DNA from: Vicinamibacterales bacterium
Lineage (GTDB): Bacteria; Acidobacteriota; Vicinamibacteria; Vicinamibacterales; 2-12-FULL-66-21
Length of the DNA stretch: 40,544 bases
Assembly (NCBI GenBank): GCA_035699745.1
Contig: DASSPH010000026.1
Span: forward strand, 1-40,544
Direction: 5' to 3'
This document shows, in pieces, positions 1,643 through 11,643 of the stretch (the stretch's first letter is position 1; every line of letters starts with the position of its first letter). Made by a program: the position numbers and the translations under genes. The notes beneath the pieces were generated by a model, which was given only the letters and a program-made list of their open reading frames with translations, ran no database searches and was not told the DNA's origin.

Positions 1643-2573
1643 TTCCCCGATCCGCACCGCCGTCATCGGGATCGGGCATCTGGGCAGGCATCACGCGCGG
1701 CTGCTGGCGGGAATCGACGCCGCGACGCTCGTCGCCGTCGTCGACACCGATCCCGAGCGCGCCGCAGCCGCGGCGGCCGCGACCGGCGCGCGCGCGCTGG
1801 CGGATTATCGCGAGCTGTTCGGCCAGGTGGATGCCGTGACGGTCGCGGTGCCGACGGAGCTGCACCGCGAGATCGCGCTGCCGTTTCTCGAGCGCGGGAT
1901 CGCGGTGCTGGTGGAAAAGCCGATCGCGCGTACGCTCGCGGAGGCTGACGCGCTGATCGCCGCCGCTGCCGCGTCCGGCGCGACGCTCGCGACCGGACAG
2001 ACCGAGCGCTTCAATCCGGCGATCGCGACGGTGATGCCGTTCGTGACCACGCCGCGGTTCATCGAGGTGCACCGGCTCGGCGTCTTTCCCGACCGGAGCC
2101 TCGACATCGACGTCGTGTTCGACCTGATGATTCACGATCTCGACATCATTCTGGCGCTGGTCAAGGCGGAGCCCACGTCGATCGAGGCGGTCGGCGTGCC
2201 GGTGCTGACCGACAAGTTCGACATCGCCAACGCGCGGCTGCGGTTCGCGAGCGGCTGCATCGCCAACGTGACCGCGAGCCGGATCAGCAAGGAGCGCGTC
2301 CGCAAGATCCGGTTCTTCCAGCCCGACGCCTACGTGTCGATCGACTACGCCGAGCAGGAAGTGGAAGGCTACCGGCTGCTCCGGCGTGCCGGCGAGCGCC
2401 CGCAGATTCAGGGCGGCAAGCTGCCGGTGACGCGCGAGGAGCCGCTGAAGCGGGAGCTCACGGATTTCGTCCACGCCGTCCGCGACACGCGCCGGCCGCT
2501 GGTCACCGGCGAGGACGGCCGCCGCGCGCTGGCGCTGGCCCAGGCGATTGCAGACAGGATGGAGACCGTTTGA
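1635..2573 (+). CDS. Gfo/Idh/MocA-family NAD(P)-dependent sugar oxidoreductase
   Basis: About 312 residues. The N-terminal Rossmann fold shows [16 protein letters not shown], followed by the family EKP motif ([16 protein letters not shown]) and a C-terminal alpha/beta substrate domain. These enzymes oxidise or reduce hydroxyls on nucleotide sugars or inositols with NAD(P). I prefer GTG at 1635 (8-bp overlap with lpxI) over ATG at 1608, which would overlap by 35 bp and add a non-conserved extension. The position directly after lpxA and lpxI suggests a role on a lipid A precursor sugar. GnnA, the oxidoreductase that helps make UDP-GlcNAc3N, belongs to this superfamily, but its aminotransferase partner GnnB is not visible here, so the substrate remains open. 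The stop overlaps the next gene's TTG. Confidence 0.85.
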
Positions 2574-4027
2574 CGTACAAGGATCTGAACACGTTCATCT
2601 CCGCGCTCGACCAGGACCGCGAACTGGCACGCATCAAGGAGCCGGTCAGCCCCGACCTCGAGATCTGCGCCGTGACCGATCGCGTGTCCAAGTCCCCGGG
2701 CGGCGGCCCGGCGCTGCTGTTCGAGAACCCCAAGGGATACGCCATGCCGGTCGCGATCAATCTCTACGGATCGATGAAGCGGATGTGCATGGCCCTCGGC
2801 GTCGAGTCGCTCGACGCGCTCGCCAGGGAGATCGAAGCGCTGACCAACCCGAAGATGCCCGCCGGCATGCTCGACACGCTGAAGATGCTGCCGATGCTGT
2901 CGCGGCTCAAGGACCTGATGCCAAAGACGGTCAGCAGCGCGCCGTGCCAGGAGGTCGTGACGAAGAACGGCACGCTGGACGAGATCCCGATTCTCACCTG
3001 CTGGCCGGAAGACGGCGGCCCCTACATCACGCTGCCGATGGTCTTCACCAAGGACCCCGAAACCGGCATGCGCAACATCGGCACCTATCGCATGCAGGTG
3101 TACGACTCGCGCACCACGGGCATGCACTGGCAGCGCCACAAGGGCGGGGCGCAGCACCATCGCATCGCCGAACGGATGGGGAAGCGGCTCGAGGTCGCGG
3201 TCGCGCTCGGCGCCGATCCCGCGTTGCCGTTCGCCGCCACCGCGCCGATGCCCGAGGGGCTCGACGAGCTGCTGCTCGCCGGCTTCCTGCGCCGAGAGCG
3301 GGTCGAGCTGGTGAAATGCGTGACCGTCGATCTCGAAGTGCCGGCCAGCGCGCAGATCGTTCTCGAAGGTTACGTCGAGCCCGGCGAGCGCCGCCGCGAA
3401 GGCCCGTTCGGCGACCACACGGGTTTCTACTCGCATCCCGACGACTATCCGGTGTTCCATCTGACGTGCGTCACCCGGCGCAAGAATCCGATCTACCTGA
3501 CCACGGTCGTCGGCATCCCCCCGATGGAGGACTACTATCTCGGCAAGGCGAGCGAGCGCATCTTCCTGCCGTTGATCAAGAAGACCGTCCCCGAGATCGT
3601 GGACATGAACTTCCCGGCCGAAGGCATCTTCCACAACATCGTCATCATCTCGATCGACAAGCGGTACCCGGGACACGCGCGCAAGATCATGAACGCGGTG
3701 TGGGGGCTCGGCCAGCTCATGTTCTCGAAGTCGGTGATCGTCGTCGACAAGGACATCGACGTGCAGAACCTTTCGGAAGTCGCCTGGGTCGTGGGCACGC
3801 ACATCGATCCCGAGCGCGACATCCAGTTCATGCGCGGCCCGGTGGACGATCTCGAGGACGCGAGCGATCTCGCCGCCTACGGCAGCAAGATGGGGATCGA
3901 CGCGACGCGGAAGTGGAAATCGGAAGGTTTCATGCGGCCCTGGCCGACACGGATCCGGACCACGGACGCGGCGGCGCGGCGCGCCGATCAGATCTGGACG
4001 CAGATCCGCCAGGGTTGGAAGCCATGA
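2570..4027 (+). CDS. UbiD-family prenylated-FMN decarboxylase of menaquinone synthesis
   Basis: A 485-residue UbiD-family protein starting at TTG 2570 (TTGA overlap with the previous stop). UbiD enzymes decarboxylate aromatic acids using prenylated FMN supplied by UbiX. Visible hallmarks are GTYRMQVYDSRTTGMHWQRH followed by KGGAQHH (about residues 168-196, cofactor and metal binding) and REGPFGDHTGFYS (about 276-288, with the acidic catalytic residues around E277 and D282). With mqnA, mqnC, a UbiA prenyltransferase and UbiX downstream, the likely substrate is prenylated 1,4-dihydroxy-6-naphthoate in the late futalosine pathway; the literature uses the symbol mqnL for such genes. The last codons overlap the next gene as ATGA, indicating translational coupling. 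Family is certain; substrate is inferred from context. Confidence 0.92.
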   Translation: MTYKDLNTFISALDQDRELARIKEPVSPDLEICAVTDRVSKSPGGGPALLFENPKGYAMPVAINLYGSMKRMCMALGVESLDALAREIEALTNPKMPAGMLDTLKMLPMLSRLKDLMPKTVSSAPCQEVVTKNGTLDEIPILTCWPEDGGPYITLPMVFTKDPETGMRNIGTYRMQVYDSRTTGMHWQRHKGGAQHHRIAERMGKRLEVAVALGADPALPFAATAPMPEGLDELLLAGFLRRERVELVKCVTVDLEVPASAQIVLEGYVEPGERRREGPFGDHTGFYSHPDDYPVFHLTCVTRRKNPIYLTTVVGIPPMEDYYLGKASERIFLPLIKKTVPEIVDMNFPAEGIFHNIVIISIDKRYPGHARKIMNAVWGLGQLMFSKSVIVVDKDIDVQNLSEVAWVVGTHIDPERDIQFMRGPVDDLEDASDLAAYGSKMGIDATRKWKSEGFMRPWPTRIRTTDAAARRADQIWTQIRQGWKP

Positions 4028-4869
4028 GCACGATCTCGATGGCCGACGCGGAAGCCATCCTCACCGACCGCAACGTCATCGCCGTGGGCGCACGGGGAGA
4101 CGACGAGCGGCGCCGCCGGCACGGCACGAAGACGACGTTCGTGCGCGTGTTCGAGGTCCACGGCGACGCCGTCCCCGCGGCCGTGCCCGCGGGCACGGCC
4201 GCCGGTGAGGTTCGGCTGACCGGCAGGCCGGCGTCAGCAGACGCGGCGGTTGCGAGCGTGATCGCCGTACGCGCCCTCGCCCGAGCGATCCCGCTCACCG
4301 CATATTCGCTGGCCGACCTTCTCGCCCTCGCTGGTGGAAGCAGCGCCACCCTGACCGAACTGGCGCGCCGTCTCGCGGCGGCGGGACTTGGCGCCATTGC
4401 CGAGGCGCCGATCGACCTGCTGCCCGACCCGGTGCAGACGATTCGCGCCGTCCGCAGCGCCGGCCTGGACGTGCCGCGGCTTACCGTCCAGCAGCCCGCC
4501 GCCGATCCTCTGCGGCACGTCGCGCTGGCGCGCGACGTGCAGGCAGGCGCGGGCGGCGTCCGCGCCTTCGCGCCGCTGCCGCGCGTCCAGTCGGTCGCGC
4601 AGCCGACCACCGGGTACGACGACGTGCGGCTCGTGGCGGTGTCGCGGCTGATGCTGGACAACATCGAGTCCATCCAGGTCGACTGGGCGCTCTACGGCCC
4701 GAAGCTCGCGCAGGTCGCGCTCACCATGGGAGCGGATGACGTGGACAGCGTGTCGCCGTTCGACGGCGATCTCGGACGCCGCCGCAGCCCGCTCGAAGAG
4801 ATCCGCGGCAACATTACCGCCGCCGGCCTCGAGCCGATCGAGCGTGACGGCACCTGGCAGCCTCGCTAG
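4024..4869 (+). CDS. Cysteine-free MqnE-like (aminofutalosine synthase homologue) pseudoenzyme
   Basis: A 281-residue protein coupled to the UbiD gene through ATGA. Its N-terminus (about 8-42: AEAILTDRNVIAVGA, then RRRRHGTKTTFVRV) and especially its C-terminus (about 193-242: PTTGYDDVRLVAVSRLMLDN, then YGPKLAQVALTMGADDVD) match the MqnE/MqnC/CofH radical-SAM framework. The CxxxCxxC iron-sulfur motif that should follow about residue 42 is absent, and the protein contains no cysteine. The region between is Ala/Val-rich and shortened, about 100 residues less than a normal MqnE. It therefore cannot bind the catalytic 4Fe-4S cluster. The reading frame is intact, in mqn-operon position, with coding bias like its neighbours, so decay to a pseudogene seems unlikely. 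A structural, regulatory or ligand-binding role is inferred, not shown. Alternatives are an assembly partner of true MqnE or MqnC, or recent decay. Confidence 0.75.
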   Translation: MSTISMADAEAILTDRNVIAVGARGDDERRRRHGTKTTFVRVFEVHGDAVPAAVPAGTAAGEVRLTGRPASADAAVASVIAVRALARAIPLTAYSLADLLALAGGSSATLTELARRLAAAGLGAIAEAPIDLLPDPVQTIRAVRSAGLDVPRLTVQQPAADPLRHVALARDVQAGAGGVRAFAPLPRVQSVAQPTTGYDDVRLVAVSRLMLDNIESIQVDWALYGPKLAQVALTMGADDVDSVSPFDGDLGRRRSPLEEIRGNITAAGLEPIERDGTWQPR

Positions 4870-4904
4870 ATTTCCAAATTCCCAAATTTCCAAATTTCCA
4901 AATC
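4868..4904. repeat. 8-bp tandem repeat, unit ATTTCCAA (about 4 copies)
   Basis: Four adjacent units, ATTTCCAA or ATTCCCAA, start right at the stop codon of the MqnE-like gene and end 5 bp before the mqnA ATG. They occupy the place where a ribosome binding site would be expected. The same unit, in the other orientation, occurs at 24896-24939 and 31455-31500. Confidence 0.85.
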
Positions 4905-4908
4905 CTGC

Positions 4909-5706
4909 ATGATTCGGGTAGGCGCCGTCACGTATCTGAACGCCCGGCCACTGGTGTACGGGCTCGAGCACAGCGATCGGTTCTCAATCCGATACGACCT
5001 TCCGTCGGAGTGCGCCCGGCTGCTGCATGCGCATGAGACCGACGTCGGACTGATCCCGTCGATCGAGTATCTGCGCGGACCCTCGCCGTACTGGATCGTG
5101 CCGGGGCCGGCGGTGACCTCGCGCGGGGCCGTCGCCTCGGTTGCGATCTTCACCCGCCGCGAGCCGCGCGACATCCGCACCATCGCGATGGACACCAGCT
5201 CGCGCACGTCTGTCGCGCTCGCCACCGTGCTGCTGCGGCGCCGCTTCGACGTGGCGCCGGCGCCGGCGCCGATGGCGCCCGATCTCGAGGCGATGCTCGC
5301 CACCGCCGATGCGGCGCTGATCATCGGCGACGTCGCGCTGTTTCTGGATCACGAGGCGGCCGGCGCCGCCAAGATCGATCTGGGTCAGGAGTGGACGGCG
5401 ATGACCGGCCTGCCGTTCGTCTATGCCTGCTGGACGGGCTGGGCGGATGCCGTCGCGCCGCACGACGTGACCCTGCTGCAGCGCGCCAGGGACGCGGGGA
5501 TGGCGCAGTCGCACGCGGTGGCCGCGGCCTACTATCCCGACGATACCCCGCGCCAGGCGATCGCCCGGCGCTACCTGCGCGATAATATCCAGTACGTGCT
5601 CGGGGAGAGCGAGATCGAGGGCTTGAAGACGTTCTATCGCTATGCCAGCGAGCTCGATCTGGCGGACTTCGACGGCACGCTGCGGTTTTACGATGCCGAG
5701 GACTGA
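4909..5706 (+). CDS. mqnA: Chorismate dehydratase MqnA
   Basis: A 265-residue periplasmic-binding-like fold enzyme that dehydrates chorismate to 3-[(1-carboxyvinyl)oxy]benzoate, the entry step of the futalosine menaquinone pathway (cytosolic). Family features are the start IRVGAVTYLNARPLVYGLE, the SRTSVALA helix near residue 97, LIIGDVALF near 143, and DLGQEW followed by TGLPFVYACW (about 160-180). The length is normal. The ATG at 4909 is the only start preserving the conserved N-terminus, but no Shine-Dalgarno is visible because an ATTTCCAA repeat array lies immediately upstream. The 3' end overlaps mqnC by 14 bp. Confidence 0.95.
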   Translation: MIRVGAVTYLNARPLVYGLEHSDRFSIRYDLPSECARLLHAHETDVGLIPSIEYLRGPSPYWIVPGPAVTSRGAVASVAIFTRREPRDIRTIAMDTSSRTSVALATVLLRRRFDVAPAPAPMAPDLEAMLATADAALIIGDVALFLDHEAAGAAKIDLGQEWTAMTGLPFVYACWTGWADAVAPHDVTLLQRARDAGMAQSHAVAAAYYPDDTPRQAIARRYLRDNIQYVLGESEIEGLKTFYRYASELDLADFDGTLRFYDAED

Positions 5707-6910
5707 GACGCTCGCGGCGAAGATCCGTGCCGGCGGCCGCGTGAGCGCCGACGAGGCGCTGCACCTGTATCGTCACGCGCCGCTGCCGCTGCTCGGCGAG
5801 CTGGCCGACGGCCTCCGCGCCGCCCGGCACCCCGGCGGCATCGTCACCTACATCATCGACCGCAACGTCAACTACACGAACATCTGCGTCGCGCGGTGCA
5901 ACTTCTGCGCGTTCTACCGCCCGGTGGGTTCCGGCGACGGCTACGTCCTCGGCTTCGAGGAGATCTTCAAGAAGATCGACGAGACGATTGCGCTCGGCGG
6001 CGTGCAGCTGCTGCTGCAGGGCGGCCACAATCCCGATCTGCCGATCGAGTGGTACGAGGACCTCTTCCGCGCCGTCAAGCAGCGGTATCCGTCGTTCAAG
6101 CTGCACGCGTTGTCGCCGCCCGAAGTGATCCATCTGACCAGGATGACCCGTCTCCCGGCTCCGGAGGTCATCGATCGCCTGATCGCCGCGGGGCTCGACA
6201 GCATTCCCGGCGGCGGCGCCGAGATCCTGGTCGACCGCGTCCGCAGGCTGCTCAACTGCTACGGCAAGGCGACCGCAGACGAATGGCTCGAGGTGATGCG
6301 CCAGGCGCACCTGAAGGGGCTGCGCACCACCGCGACGATGATGTACGGGCACGTCGAGACGGTGGAGGAGCGGATCGAGCACATGCGCCGGCTGCGCGAG
6401 GTGCAGGACGAGACCGGCGGCTTCACCGCGTTCATCACCTGGAGCTACCAGCCGGAGCACACCGAGCTGGGCGGCGGCGAAGCGACCGGCGTCGAATACC
6501 TGCGGATGCTGGCGCTGGCGCGGATCTTCCTCGACAACTTCCCGAGCCTGCAGGCGTCATGGGTGACGCAGGGCGGCAAGGTCGGCCAGCTCTCGCTCGC
6601 CTACGGCTCGAACGACATGGGCAGCGTGATGATCGAGGAGAACGTCGTCCGCGCCGCCGGCGCGAGCTACTGCATGGACGAAGTCGAGATCGTGCGCAAC
6701 ATCGAGAACGCCGGGTTCGTCGCCAAGCGGCGCAACATGCATTACGACATCCTGGGCGACCCGTTCTTCCGCGAGCAGGCAGTGCCGCGGCAGTTGGCCC
6801 TGGCCACGGCGCGCGCCGACGGCGACACCAGCCGCCCCGAGGAGCTGAAGCTCTACGCCGCCCGCAGCGCCGCGGAAAAGCGCCTGCGGGCCAACGACGG
6901 CCCGTCCTAG
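5693..6910 (+). CDS. mqnC: Cyclic dehypoxanthinyl futalosine synthase MqnC (radical SAM)
   Basis: A 405-residue radical-SAM enzyme that cyclises dehypoxanthine futalosine. The cluster motif is CVARCNFC, with cysteines at residues 65, 69 and 72 when counted from ATG 5693. GGVQLLLQGGHNPDLPIEWY, the IPGGGAEIL segment, MMYGHVET and the C-terminal GSNDMGSVMIEENVV follow in the order usual for MqnC. I chose ATG 5693 because it overlaps mqnA by only 14 bp; an upstream in-frame ATG at 5642 would extend deep into mqnA. The short C-terminal extension after DILGDPFF is Ala/Arg-rich. The intact cysteines here contrast with the cysteine-free MqnE homologue two genes upstream. Confidence 0.96.
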   Translation: MPRTETLAAKIRAGGRVSADEALHLYRHAPLPLLGELADGLRAARHPGGIVTYIIDRNVNYTNICVARCNFCAFYRPVGSGDGYVLGFEEIFKKIDETIALGGVQLLLQGGHNPDLPIEWYEDLFRAVKQRYPSFKLHALSPPEVIHLTRMTRLPAPEVIDRLIAAGLDSIPGGGAEILVDRVRRLLNCYGKATADEWLEVMRQAHLKGLRTTATMMYGHVETVEERIEHMRRLREVQDETGGFTAFITWSYQPEHTELGGGEATGVEYLRMLALARIFLDNFPSLQASWVTQGGKVGQLSLAYGSNDMGSVMIEENVVRAAGASYCMDEVEIVRNIENAGFVAKRRNMHYDILGDPFFREQAVPRQLALATARADGDTSRPEELKLYAARSAAEKRLRANDGPS

Positions 6911-6930
6911 CACGGCGTTCGCTGCGAGGG

Positions 6931-7052
6931 CCGACGGCTTACGCTCCGGCACGAAGATCACAAAGGCCACAAAGACACTAAGAAACCCAATAGGTCTTCT
7001 TTGTGAGCTTTGTGATCTTCGTGGACTTTGTGTCGGAGCGTTGAGCCGTCGG
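6931..7052. repeat. Long palindromic intergenic element with 9-bp CACAAAG-type units
   Basis: The left arm begins GCCGACGGCT, then CTCCGGCACGAAGATCAC and repeated 9-mers such as CACAAAGGC and CACAAAGAC. The right arm is the near reverse complement and ends GAGCCGTCGG. The centre is about 10 nt. As RNA this would fold into a stem of roughly 50 bp with bulges. It fills the gap between mqnC and the amidohydrolase gene. A second copy with the same arm order lies at 12684-12821, so this is a dispersed element rather than a simple terminator. Confidence 0.85.
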
Positions 7053-7076
7053 CCGTCACAGGCGGATTACACTTGA

Positions 7077-8264
7077 ATGTTGCCCGTCGCTTACAGAGCC
7101 GCCTGGGTCCTTCCGATCTCCACGCCACCGATCGCCGGCGGCGTGGTCACGGTCGATCGCGGCATCGTCACGGCCGTCGGCGCGTACGCGGGGGGCGCGG
7201 TCGAGGATCTCGGAAGCGTGGCGATCCTGCCGGGGCTGGTGAACGCCCACACCCATCTCGAACTCTCGTGGATGCGCGGGCAGGTGGCGCCGAACACGTC
7301 GATGCCTGCCTGGGCGGCATCGCTGATGGCGCTGCGTCGCACGGTGTCGCACGAACCGCCGGAGCCGATCGGTGATGCGATCGCCGAGGCGCGGCGCGCG
7401 GGCACCTGTCTGGTCGGCGACGTCACGAACACGTTCGCGACGTTCGATCCGCTGCTCGACAGCGAGCTGTCGGCGGTGTTGTTTCGTGAGCTGCTCGGAT
7501 TCGCGGTCGCCGATCCCGAAGCCGCGATGGCCGGCGCGGTCGAGCAGATCGCCGCGCTGACGCCGGTCGAATGGCTGCGTCCCGCGCTTGCGCCGCACGC
7601 GCCGTATTCGGTCGCACCGGCGCTCCTGCAGGCGATCGCCCGCGCCAACGACGGCCGTCCGCTGAGCATTCATCTCGGCGAGTCGGCCCAGGAGATCGAG
7701 TTCCTCGCCGACGGGACGGGGGAGTGGCGCGGGCTGCTGGAGGCGCTCGGCGTCTGGAACCCGTCGTGGACCCCGCCCGGCTGCGGTCCGGTGGAGTACC
7801 TGGATCGCCTCGGACTCGTCGACCACCGGCTGCTCGCCGTCCATGGCGTCCATTTCACCGATGCCGACCTCGGGCGTCTCGCGGCCGCGGGAGCCACGGT
7901 GGTCGCGTGCCCCCGCAGCAACCGCTGGACCGGCGCGGGGGAGCCGCCCATCGGGCGGTTCTACGCGTCCGGCGTCCGGGTCGCGGCCGGCACCGACAGC
8001 CTCGCCAGCGTGGCGGATCTCGATATGTTCGCGGAACTGGCCGAAATCCGTCGTCTCGCGCCTGGCGTCCCCGCCGCGCGCCTGCTCCACAGCGCGACCC
8101 TGGCCGGCGCGCAGGCGCTCGGGTTCGGCGCGGAGCTCGGCTCGATCGAGCCGGGAAAGCGGGCCCAGCTCCTGGCGGTTCGCGTGCCGCCAGACGTCCC
8201 GGACGTGGAACAATATCTGCTGAGCGGTATCGAGACTGCCGACGTCCGCTGGCTCGATTCGTAA
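7077..8264 (+). CDS. mqnX: Amidohydrolase, probable aminodeoxyfutalosine deaminase (MqnX type)
   Basis: A 395-residue metal-dependent amidohydrolase related to TRZ/ATZ and guanine/adenosine-type deaminases. Metal ligands seen are HTH at 58-60 (LVNAHTHLE), APHAPYS near 175, IHLGES near 195, a VHGVHF segment near 260, and GTDSLAS near 306. In the futalosine pathway one branch deaminates aminodeoxyfutalosine to futalosine with an amidohydrolase of this kind. The position between mqnC and the prenyltransferase gene makes that the best assignment. The substrate is inferred from context; other aminopurine or triazine substrates are possible on sequence alone. ATG 7077 is preceded by the palindromic element at 6931-7052. 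Confidence 0.8.
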   Translation: MLPVAYRAAWVLPISTPPIAGGVVTVDRGIVTAVGAYAGGAVEDLGSVAILPGLVNAHTHLELSWMRGQVAPNTSMPAWAASLMALRRTVSHEPPEPIGDAIAEARRAGTCLVGDVTNTFATFDPLLDSELSAVLFRELLGFAVADPEAAMAGAVEQIAALTPVEWLRPALAPHAPYSVAPALLQAIARANDGRPLSIHLGESAQEIEFLADGTGEWRGLLEALGVWNPSWTPPGCGPVEYLDRLGLVDHRLLAVHGVHFTDADLGRLAAAGATVVACPRSNRWTGAGEPPIGRFYASGVRVAAGTDSLASVADLDMFAELAEIRRLAPGVPAARLLHSATLAGAQALGFGAELGSIEPGKRAQLLAVRVPPDVPDVEQYLLSGIETADVRWLDS

Positions 8265-8318: not shown

Positions 8319-9185
8319 TTGAACAGGCTTGCGACATACCTCTCGTTCGTGCGCTTCTCGCACAGCGTCTTCGCGCTCCCGTTCGCGCTGACCGGGGCGC
8401 TGCTCGCGCTCCGGGCTTATCCCATCGGCCCTCGCGAGATCGCCTGGCGCGTTTTGTGGATCGTGATCGCAATGGTGGCGGCGCGGACCGCGGCGATGGG
8501 CTTCAACCGGCTGGCGGACGCGCGATGGGACGCGCAGAATCCACGCACCGCCATGCGTGAGATCCCACGCGGCGCGATGAGCCGCCGCGAGGCCGCGGTG
8601 TTCGTGATCGCCGCCGCCGCCGTCTTCGTCGGCGCATCCTCGCGGCTCGGCGCGCTGTGCTTCGCGCTGTCTCCGGTCGCGCTCGCCATCGTCTTCTGGT
8701 ATTCGCTGGCGAAGCGGTTCACCAGCTACACGCAGTTCTTCCTCGCCCTGGCGATGGCCGTGGCGCCGGTCGGCGGCTGGCTCGCCGCGGGCGGGCCGAT
8801 CGCCGCGGCGGAGCCCTGGCTGCTCGGCGCGGCGATTGGCGCCTGGGTCGGCGGCTTCGACATCCTCTACGCCTGCCAGGATCTGGACTTCGATCGCGCC
8901 GCCGGCCTCAATTCGATTCCGGTGCGCTTCGGCGTCCGCGCGTCGCTGCTGATCTCGCGCCTGATGCACGCCGCCGCGGTCGTGTTCCTCGCCTGGCTCG
9001 GCCTCGTGGCCGATCTCACTCCGCTCTATTTCCTCGGCGTCGCCGTCGTCGCGGCGCTGCTCGTCTACGAACAGTCGCTGGTCAGCGAGCAGGACCTGTC
9101 GCAGGTGAAGCGCGCGTTCGACCTGAACGGCTACGTCGGCATCCTGTATTTCGTCGCGACCGCGGTATCGATCTATGTCGCCTGA
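8319..9185 (+). CDS. UbiA-family prenyltransferase of menaquinone synthesis (MqnP-like)
   Basis: A 288-residue integral membrane protein with about eight to nine hydrophobic helices. Both Asp-rich motifs of UbiA enzymes are present: NRLADARWDAQNPRT (about 66-80) and DILYACQDLDFDR (about 184-196), which bind the Mg-diphosphate of the prenyl donor. In this operon it should attach the polyprenyl tail to the 1,4-dihydroxy-6-naphthoate-derived ring; the literature name for this subfamily is MqnP. Many databases label it 4-hydroxybenzoate polyprenyltransferase. The start is TTG at 8319, giving NRLATYLSFVRFSHSVFALP, the usual UbiA N-terminus. It overlaps ubiX by 11 bp. Confidence 0.92.
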   Translation: MNRLATYLSFVRFSHSVFALPFALTGALLALRAYPIGPREIAWRVLWIVIAMVAARTAAMGFNRLADARWDAQNPRTAMREIPRGAMSRREAAVFVIAAAAVFVGASSRLGALCFALSPVALAIVFWYSLAKRFTSYTQFFLALAMAVAPVGGWLAAGGPIAAAEPWLLGAAIGAWVGGFDILYACQDLDFDRAAGLNSIPVRFGVRASLLISRLMHAAAVVFLAWLGLVADLTPLYFLGVAVVAALLVYEQSLVSEQDLSQVKRAFDLNGYVGILYFVATAVSIYVA

Positions 9186-9807
9186 GCATCCTCCCGCGCC
9201 GCCTCGGAGACGCACGTTCGCGCTGGCGATTACCGGCGCCAGCGGGGCGATCTACGCGACGCGGACGATGGCGGCGCTGCTCGAGCGCGAATGCCACCTC
9301 GAGGTGGTGATTTCCGACTACGGCCGCCGGCTGCTGCACGAGGAGCTGGGCGAGGCGGCCGCGGTGCCGCGGCTGAGGGAGTACCTCGTCGGCAAGTACG
9401 GCGACGCCGCGTCGCGCGGCTCCTACAGCGTCCTCAGCAACAAGGATCTCGGCGCCACGATCGCGAGCGGCAGCCACGACTGCGAGGGGATGGTGATCGT
9501 CCCCTGCTCGATGAAGACCCTGGCGGGCGTCGCGCACGGGCTGTCGCGCAACCTCATCGAACGCGCGGCGGACGTGATGATGAAGGAAAAGCGGCGCCTC
9601 GTGCTGGTCCCGCGCGAGGCGCCGATGAGTCTGCCGCAGCTGAGGAACATGGTGCTCTGCGCCGAGGCGGGTGCGATGATGCTGCCGGCGATGCCGGCCT
9701 TCTACCAGATGCCGAAGAGCCTCGACGATCTCGCCGACTTCATGGCCGGCAAGATCCTCTCGGCGCTCGGCTTCGAGCAGACGCTGTATCCCAAGTGGGA
9801 AGGATGA
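9175..9807 (+). CDS. ubiX: UbiX-family flavin prenyltransferase
   Basis: A 210-residue flavin prenyltransferase that joins dimethylallyl phosphate to FMN to make the prenylated FMN needed by UbiD enzymes. Family motifs are AITGASGAIYATRTM (about 16-30), the IVPCSMKTLAGVAHGLSRNL segment (about 109-128), and the VLVPREAPMSLPQLRNM region (about 143-159). The cognate decarboxylase is encoded at 2570-4027 in the same operon. ATG 9175 lies within the end of the prenyltransferase gene, indicating coupled translation. In futalosine clusters the symbol mqnM is sometimes used. Confidence 0.95.
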   Translation: MSPEHPPAPPRRRTFALAITGASGAIYATRTMAALLERECHLEVVISDYGRRLLHEELGEAAAVPRLREYLVGKYGDAASRGSYSVLSNKDLGATIASGSHDCEGMVIVPCSMKTLAGVAHGLSRNLIERAADVMMKEKRRLVLVPREAPMSLPQLRNMVLCAEAGAMMLPAMPAFYQMPKSLDDLADFMAGKILSALGFEQTLYPKWEG

Positions 9808-10839: not shown

Positions 10840-10920
10840 ATTGAGTTGTCCTGTCGGGGAGCGACCGATCTTACCACGGCCGAGCCGGGAGCTCTACCAT
10901 GGGAAGGTAAGATCGCGGGA

Positions 10921-11643
10921 GTGGCCACGCTTCCCGACAAGTCCCCGGCGCGCATCGCGGCGATGTTCGACGCGATCGCCCGGCGGTACGACTTCCTCAA
11001 CCACTTTCTCAGCGTGGGGCTCGATACGCGCTGGCGCGCCCGCGCCATCCGCGATGCCGCCCTGCCGCCGGACGCCCGCGTGCTCGATCTCTGCACCGGC
11101 ACCGCGGATCTGGCGATCGCCGCCGTCGCCGGCGTGCCGACCGCACGCGTCGTCGGCGTCGATTTCGCCGGTGCGATGCTGCGCGTCGGCCTGGACAAGC
11201 TGCGCGGCCGCGGTCTCACCGGCCGGATCTCGCTCGTGCGCGGCGACGCGACGCGGATTCCGGTGCGCGACGGCTGGGCGGACGCGGCGACCATCGGTTT
11301 CGGCATCCGCAACGTGGCCGACCCGGAAGCGGCGCTGCGCGAGCTGGCGCGGACGATCAAGCCGGGCGGGCGCCTGGTGATCCTGGAGTTCGGCGAGCCG
11401 CGGATTCCGGGGATCCGGACGCTGTACCAGTGGTATTTCCGCTACCTGCTGCCGAGGCTCGGGAAGGTCGTCTCGAAGCACCAGAGCGCCTATTCGTACC
11501 TGCCTGCCTCCGTCGGCACGTTCCCGCCCCCGGCACAGTTCGCCGCCACGATTTCTTCACACGGGTTTCGCGACGTTCGTGCCGTCCCTTTGTCGCTCGG
11601 CATCGTCTATCTCTACGGCGGCACCCGCGCGCAGCTGTTATAA
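10921..11643 (+). CDS. ubiE: Demethylmenaquinone methyltransferase UbiE/MenG
   Basis: A 240-residue SAM-dependent C-methyltransferase that converts demethylmenaquinone to menaquinone, the last step. Visible motifs are the family start with MFDAIARRYDFLNHFLS, the SAM-binding VLDLCTGTADLAIA, GVDFAGAML, and the UbiE signature TIGFGIRNVADPEAALREL, then KPGGRLVILEF. I chose GTG 10921, preceded by GCGGGAG, over a TTG at 10846 whose extra 25 residues are not family-like. It completes the set of menaquinone tail, decarboxylation and methylation genes here. The stop overlaps a TATAAT sequence that may serve the next gene. Confidence 0.94.
   Translation: MATLPDKSPARIAAMFDAIARRYDFLNHFLSVGLDTRWRARAIRDAALPPDARVLDLCTGTADLAIAAVAGVPTARVVGVDFAGAMLRVGLDKLRGRGLTGRISLVRGDATRIPVRDGWADAATIGFGIRNVADPEAALRELARTIKPGGRLVILEFGEPRIPGIRTLYQWYFRYLLPRLGKVVSKHQSAYSYLPASVGTFPPPAQFAATISSHGFRDVRAVPLSLGIVYLYGGTRAQLL

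Follow-up and report, generated by a model that had tools for sequence, protein, structure and literature searches.

Which role is left for a relative of a radical S-adenosylmethionine (SAM) enzyme that no longer possesses the ligands of an iron-sulfur cluster? This question is raised by a gene at positions 4024 to 4869 (forward strand) of contig DASSPH010000026.1 from a Vicinamibacterales bacterium (GenBank assembly GCA_035699745.1; phylum Acidobacteriota), of which a stretch of 40,544 nucleotides, in the following referred to as the window, was analyzed. The gene is located in an operon of the futalosine pathway to menaquinone and encodes a cluster-less protein of the MqnE/MqnC type (281 amino acids), which was recognized by its open reading frame (ORF), a CofH_C domain and partial matches to MqnC and MqnE. 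Most probably among the explanations considered, and with a probability of roughly 0.4, this protein is an order-specific pseudoenzyme of the MqnE/MqnC family, which has kept the substrate-side part of the barrel and takes part in the futalosine pathway as a carrier or binding partner without radical chemistry. The original prediction, made from the DNA sequence, had likewise proposed a pseudoenzyme. Kinship with MqnE and MqnC, lack of the cluster motif, purifying selection and presence throughout the order support this; the choice between the roles it had offered (scaffold or activator, carrier, regulator) is left undecided by the data.

A predicted barrel without the cluster motif

The ORF is open over its whole length; 281 residues are followed by a TAG stop codon, and the product contains no cysteine. 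The Pfam domain CofH_C (PF19288) matches residues 185–278 (47.4 bits, cut-off 27), and all 31 scanned family members match this domain at an E-value of 0.001, which places the protein in the CofH/MqnC/MqnE superfamily. It belongs to neither of the two enzymes themselves. The NCBIfam models of MqnC (TIGR03699, residues 160–278, 70.9 bits) and MqnE (TIGR03700, residues 161–279, 64.7 bits) were matched with scores far short of the respective cut-offs (428.1 and 434.55), and the CxxxCxxC motif expected of MqnC is missing as well. In family scans of the single protein no N-terminal similarity to MqnE showed. Positions 1–55 of the MqnE profile were matched by the same gene in seven relatives, and together with the C-terminal domain match this means that the homology spans both ends of MqnE. 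The MqnE/MqnC-like segments which had been proposed at both termini were thus recovered. The absence of CxxxCxxC, also proposed beforehand, extends to all 54 distinct family members (those with at least 200 matched residues), none of which contains even C..C. The stronger claim that no cysteine occurs at all is correct for the protein of the window but not for the family, since 35 of the 54 members possess between one and five (none in 19 members, one in 11, two in 16, three in 6, four in 1 and five in 1).

The losses are unevenly distributed along the protein. In radical-SAM barrels the first half is assigned to SAM and the last third to the substrate. MqnE-conserved positions were taken from 28 MqnE sequences, and a position was regarded as kept if it occurs in at least half of 14 family members. 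Ahead of the cluster, 7 of 11 such positions are kept. The cluster/SAM half retains 5 of 44 and the C-terminal third 22 of 38, a significant difference (Fisher p 1.2e-5). The motifs TN-CxxxCxxC, PGGGAE, TMLYGH and the late E...AG of MqnE are lost, whereas PL, R, W, AQ, GADDxD and P-ER of its C-terminal part are retained. With only 5 of 44 positions kept, the family does not exhibit the SAM motifs of MqnE in the first barrel half; which of these positions bind SAM is our assumption. MqnE is also longer (374 residues). Lacking the cluster, the protein is expected, judging by its sequence, to be devoid of aminofutalosine synthase activity.

Within the family, 30 columns are invariant among 31 members, and 23 of the 32 positions with at least 95% identity are located within residues 181–281 (p 1.7e-5). 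Conserved polar residues are E62 and R64 at strand 2 as well as Q218 and D220 at strand 7.

Structure prediction led to the same relative. A two-row AlphaFold model was poor (predicted local distance difference test, pLDDT, 61.0), and its best Foldseek match was already MqnE; the three-row model (pLDDT 76.3; predicted template modeling score 0.72) also had MqnE as its best Foldseek match. The closest structure is MqnE of Pedobacter heparinus with aminofutalosine (PDB 6xi9; related entry 6xig), with a Z-score of 17.4 and a root mean square deviation of 3.8 over 258 residues. Z-scores were 11.4–12.9 for other radical-SAM enzymes and at most 10.1 for unrelated barrels. The fold is predicted to be a barrel like that of MqnE, in agreement with membership in the superfamily. 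As profile and structure both confirm the relation to MqnE, the objection that the resemblance could be spurious did not hold.

Distribution and selection

The class search covered 193 genomes (162 of the same order and 31 of other orders), and a family match was defined by a family-profile E-value of at most 1e-48; a few of the matches are pieces at contig ends. The family was detected in 137 of the 162 same-order genomes, with the shortest match (G494) covering 91 positions. It was absent from all 31 genomes that represent other orders of the class; 27 of these showed MqnE- or MqnC-like matches and four showed none. Among the remaining same-order genomes, 15 gave matches of the MqnE- or MqnC-like kind only, and 10 gave no match at all. 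Ten exceptions were re-examined, and each of them either breaks the contig at the locus or shows no mqnC. In four of the 15 genomes, mqnC is found without the full gene: the contig stops upstream of the mqnC match at a distance of about 0.2 kb (G009), stops inside mqnA (G254), starts inside mqnC (G481) or stops inside the gene itself, of which the C-terminal piece is present (G540). The other 11 have a single match each; among the six that were re-examined, those of G034 and G315 are MqnE, and G475, G503, G447 and G491 have MqnE-like matches only. Seven of the 10 genomes without any match belong to family f12, and a PF02621 gene was not found either in G022 and G033 of this family or in G038 of another one.

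In the phylum search (396 genomes), matches were listed for 42 genomes of the same order, and 40 of these had the family (not G254 and G315). Matches were also listed for four genomes of other orders in the class, from all of which the family was absent; these denominators leave out genomes without any match. Absence from sister genomes, which would have spoken against a retained function, was hence not observed; the gene is present order-wide and in the same operon. Among viral contigs, 17 stretches matched the search pattern, and none of them encodes a relative of the protein.

The gene is under purifying selection and clearly constrained. Its ratio of nonsynonymous to synonymous substitutions (dN/dS; NG86, nine pairs, three of which are from three genomes of one genus) is 0.15–0.31, compared to 0.07–0.33 for mqnA (eight pairs) and 0.09–0.16 for mqnC (nine pairs). 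These values are well below 1, the value expected for decay. No stop codon was found inside the gene in 35 same-gene matches (in G036, one TGA appears only when the match is extended). Loss of catalytic residues combined with purifying selection in many species is what characterizes a conserved pseudoenzyme. At the same time the median distance of the gene (0.96) exceeds those of the seven genes used for comparison (0.26–0.83), i.e. it evolves more rapidly than these.

Pathway enzymes elsewhere in the genome

The genome to which the window belongs consists of 110 contigs and is estimated to be 100% complete. As had been recommended with the original prediction, it was searched for an intact MqnE, and such a protein, with the cluster motif CVASCLFC, is encoded on contig C67 (476.8 bits, cut-off 434.55). 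An active-looking paralogue is therefore present in the same genome, as is typical for conserved pseudoenzymes. In the relatives search MqnE was above the cut-off in 33 of 40 genomes, this one included. In some other families of the phylum (loci L206, L210, L216, L218 and L222), MqnE possesses C-x5-C-x2-C (CVYTYNCKFC or similar) and not CxxxCxxC.

A true MqnE elsewhere and the rapid evolution of the gene would both be in accordance with remains of mqnE that are on the way out and are retained by chance or by polarity on mqnA-mqnC; that the gene is a remnant of mqnE had been raised as an alternative from the beginning. One half of this alternative, the separate location of the true enzyme, proved to be correct. 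The copy in the operon, however, is intact, nearly universal in the order and free of internal stops, and its low dN/dS and the invariant columns described above largely refute decay, so that this explanation is extremely improbable.

A second PF02621 gene, which gave no NCBIfam match and was taken as mqnD, is also located on contig C67. The pathway set of the genome comprises MqnA, MqnE, MqnC, MqnD, a probable deaminase and the late steps. MqnB was not found in this genome, and its two proteins with PF01048 represent a purine-nucleoside phosphorylase and a methylthioadenosine phosphorylase; no nucleosidase was detected near mqnD among the nine ORFs scanned there. In the 40 relatives, the MqnB model TIGR03664 was above the cut-off in six and showed some match at an E-value of 0.01 in 13, and the window's own family, with 12 genomes, gave no match at this E-value.

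The missing MqnB brings up the idea that the old barrel houses a new enzyme without radical chemistry, which might for example replace this futalosine hydrolase. All other genes lying between ubiD and the deaminase gene have a step assigned to them, and the closest fold match is an enzyme with bound aminofutalosine. The relative rate of the gene, however, is equal whether MqnB-like genes exist or not: it is 1.78 in eight genomes that have one and 1.80 in the 26 that were counted as having none (p 0.83). Conserved columns exclusive to these 26 genomes were not found either. The eight consist of the six above the TIGR03664 cut-off together with G014 and G027, which have sub-cut-off pieces beside mqnD; the 26 include G021, G029 and G030 with weak sub-cut-off matches, and draft genomes may hide MqnB. 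Replacement of MqnB in step with its absence was rejected on this basis: because rates are equal and group-specific columns are missing, the protein is not a simple substitute for MqnB, and it could act beside another enzyme. Furthermore, catalytic residues were not identified in it, and the nucleosidase search was confined to PF01048 and MqnB. A new enzyme therefore appears quite improbable.

Ancestry and a second cluster-less lineage

The phylogenetic tree was calculated from 72 rows (14 of the 31 family members, 10 own-order and 18 other MqnE, 28 MqnC-side sequences and two CofH). The family forms a single clade (support 100/100) on a long stem (3.56), and its grouping with all MqnE has a support of 94/87, which narrowly misses the starred level. 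MqnE of the own order is grouped with same-class MqnE (87/84), and for this reason it need not be a foreign gene. The residues D200 and P226 are shared with MqnE of other classes, are missing in own-order MqnE and are nearly missing in MqnC. In addition, four loci were fetched from other orders of the class, and in three of them, all from family f16, the corresponding place ahead of mqnA-mqnC is taken by the true mqnE. This suggests an mqnE at that place as the ancestor of the gene. Based on the tree, on D200 and P226 and on the operon slot, an origin from MqnE rather than from MqnC is favored.

MqnC belongs to the same superfamily, contains the CofH_C domain as well and is encoded next to the gene; compared to MqnC, the protein shows the same motif losses as compared to MqnE.

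A second group of cluster-less proteins was found in family f24, which belongs to another class of the same phylum (loci L152, 1652–2605; L153, 8197–9084; L154, 8710–9624; and L200–L203). The comparison included 12 f24 genomes picked from the matches of the phylum search. In six of them (G085, G127, G144, G168, G373 and G379), a relative of MqnC with 296–320 residues lacks CxxxCxxC; no MqnC above the cut-off was detected in these, but a divergent MqnC-like protein with CxxxCxxC is present (L192–L197). The other six (G118, G205, G250, G287, G319 and G335) possess a canonical MqnC, and none of them has the cluster-less protein. No match to mqnA or mqnC was found beside the cluster-less gene in three loci read. 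Like the protein of the window, the f24 proteins have lost the CxxxCxxC segment within the radical-SAM family of the futalosine pathway; unlike it, they are nested in the canonical MqnC of their own family (100/99), which indicates a separate origin, even if a grouping of the two was not rejected by the approximately unbiased (AU) test (p 0.139). A simple reading of the f24 case is gene replacement followed by relaxed evolution, as the scores drop from 272 to 112 bits. By the tree this is a second, separate cluster loss in the phylum, and a comparative study is thereby possible.

Pseudo-radical-SAM proteins are relatives of radical-SAM enzymes without the cluster motif, and we know of none in quinone biosynthesis. 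The literature searched did not reveal any report of an MqnE or MqnC without the cluster; as most subscription journals were outside its range, this is weak evidence for novelty; a search with pseudo-radical-SAM terms also yielded no paper. In PMC3914697, MqnA, MqnC and MqnD are reported for five of five Acidobacteria.

Proposed role

The preferred reading can be formulated as follows. A copy of MqnE in the slot before mqnA-mqnC would be the most likely origin. In this copy, the ligands of the 4Fe-4S cluster and the motifs for SAM binding in the first half of the barrel would have disappeared, and the C-terminal third, taken as the substrate side, would have been kept and then frozen. Radical chemistry would be left to the intact MqnE on the other contig and to MqnC. 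The protein would be made together with MqnA and MqnC and may bind an intermediate of the pathway, i.e. 3-enolpyruvylbenzoate, aminofutalosine, futalosine or dehypoxanthinyl futalosine. The bound intermediate could be protected or handed on, or else MqnA or MqnC could be tuned. We infer the binding of a ligand as well as the identities of ligand and partner.

Several observations weigh against this reading. With regard to the origin, AU tests weakly rejected the family as sister to own-order MqnE (p 0.024) or to same-class MqnE (p 0.041), possibly due to long-branch effects, and did not reject a placement on the MqnC side (p 0.196). Among 22 diagnostic columns, five are MqnE-like (G34, F94, L185, D238, D241), three are MqnC-like (D26, S95, Q218) and the rest are neither (p 0.73). 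Neither approach settles MqnE versus MqnC ancestry. The fourth same-class locus (L215, family f17) contains mqnE without mqnA or mqnC in the fetched stretch. With regard to the fold, the MqnC of the window served as the third row of the better model, and the conserved loop 239–255 with several invariant residues is the worst-predicted part (pLDDT under 50). An enrichment of conserved residues at the barrel mouth was tried as a criterion and rejected (9 of 49 in beta-to-alpha versus 2 of 40 in alpha-to-beta loops, p 0.10). With regard to partners, the rate of the protein covaries with MqnE (r 0.37, p 0.0025; 19 genomes), the deaminase (0.29), MqnC (0.26) and MqnA (0.09), and the unrelated control pair MqnE-LpxI covaries more strongly (0.57). 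Since the values do not exceed this control pair, rate covariation was discarded as evidence for a partnership with MqnA, MqnC or MqnE.

Some of these data also bear on a pure protein partner, i.e. a non-catalytic subunit or chaperone which pairs with MqnE or MqnC via the kept barrel half and has no ligand of its own. A possible overlap with mqnA and the constant vicinity of mqnC would fit such a partner, and among the pathway proteins the rate covariation is highest with MqnE. The cluster-less MqnC-like protein of family f24, which occurs only in genomes with the divergent MqnC-like protein and without canonical MqnC (6 of 6 versus 0 of 6), points in the same direction. This explanation is weakened by the higher covariation of the control pair and by the conserved polar residues E62, R64, Q218 and D220, which hint at a pocket. 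It also receives no help from complementary loss, which was tried and rejected: 105 positions are universal in 29 other MqnE; nine of them are lost in own-order MqnE and 84 are clearly kept there, and the protein retains two of the nine and 21 of the 84, without enrichment of those that were lost. A partner without a ligand is thus conceivable, but rather unlikely.

The carrier or binding-partner role that we prefer could also be taken further. A radical-SAM barrel stripped of its iron-sulfur/SAM half might have been rebuilt as a non-radical part of the futalosine pathway on which one order depends, either as an obligatory subunit for handling an intermediate or as an enzyme for the conversion of futalosine to dehypoxanthinyl futalosine, a step without a recognized catalyst in most of the relatives searched. 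We consider this bolder version unlikely. An order-wide protein that occupies the slot of mqnE but lacks the motifs for its chemistry suggests an unrecognized component of the futalosine route to menaquinone. The futalosine pathway is discussed as a drug target. In addition, annotation by position or by the CofH_C domain may be misleading, as the gene could be named mqnE or mqnC while the active enzyme is encoded elsewhere.

Operon and neighboring genes

Upstream of the gene, a UbiD-type menaquinone biosynthesis decarboxylase is encoded on the same strand (2570–4027; TIGR03701, 622.9 bits, above the cut-off). Its stop codon (4025–4027) overlaps the start codon of the gene (ATG, 4024) as ATGA, so that the coupling to ubiD described in the original prediction is borne out by the coordinates. 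As a lasting feature this linkage does not hold: ubiD is located directly upstream in only 15 of 36 loci and not in 18, and three loci are cut off there.

Downstream, mqnA (chorismate dehydratase; 4909–5706, forward strand) was assigned by PF02621 (VitK2_biosynth) and its place in the operon, as NCBIfam gave no match, and mqnC (cyclic dehypoxanthinyl futalosine synthase with CxxxCxxC; 5642–6910, forward strand) by TIGR03699 (483.4 bits, above the cut-off); both had been expected at this position. In 35 of the 36 loci holding the gene, mqnA follows directly; in the exception (G001), mqnC follows directly and mqnA is found on another contig. A possible start codon of mqnA overlaps the stop codon of the gene in 21 of 31 loci; one of the 31 (L018) has no mqnA at this place. 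In the window, this possible overlap is replaced by a 39-base spacer (4870–4908, forward strand), which contains an A/T-rich tract of short repeats.

Further genes on the forward strand encode an amidohydrolase, which is a probable aminofutalosine deaminase (7077–8264; PRK08418, 146.4 bits, below the cut-off of 320), and, according to the NCBIfam scan, a UbiA-like prenyltransferase (MqnP-like; 8319–9185), a UbiX-type flavin prenyltransferase (9175–9807) and a UbiE/MenG-type methyltransferase (10846–11643). An Rfam scan of the window yielded nothing at the gathering score.

An imperfect inverted repeat of the CACGAAGATCACAAAG type is present within 6911–7076, between mqnC and the amidohydrolase gene. 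In locus L083 (G002, contig C216, 13962–14949), mqnC is seemingly interrupted by a TAG stop codon in the draft sequence, for which an assembly error is possible. The draft genome G484 harbors two copies of the cluster-less gene on two contigs (L246 and L247), with an MqnC-like match downstream of each, which may be due to a duplication or to a mixed assembly.

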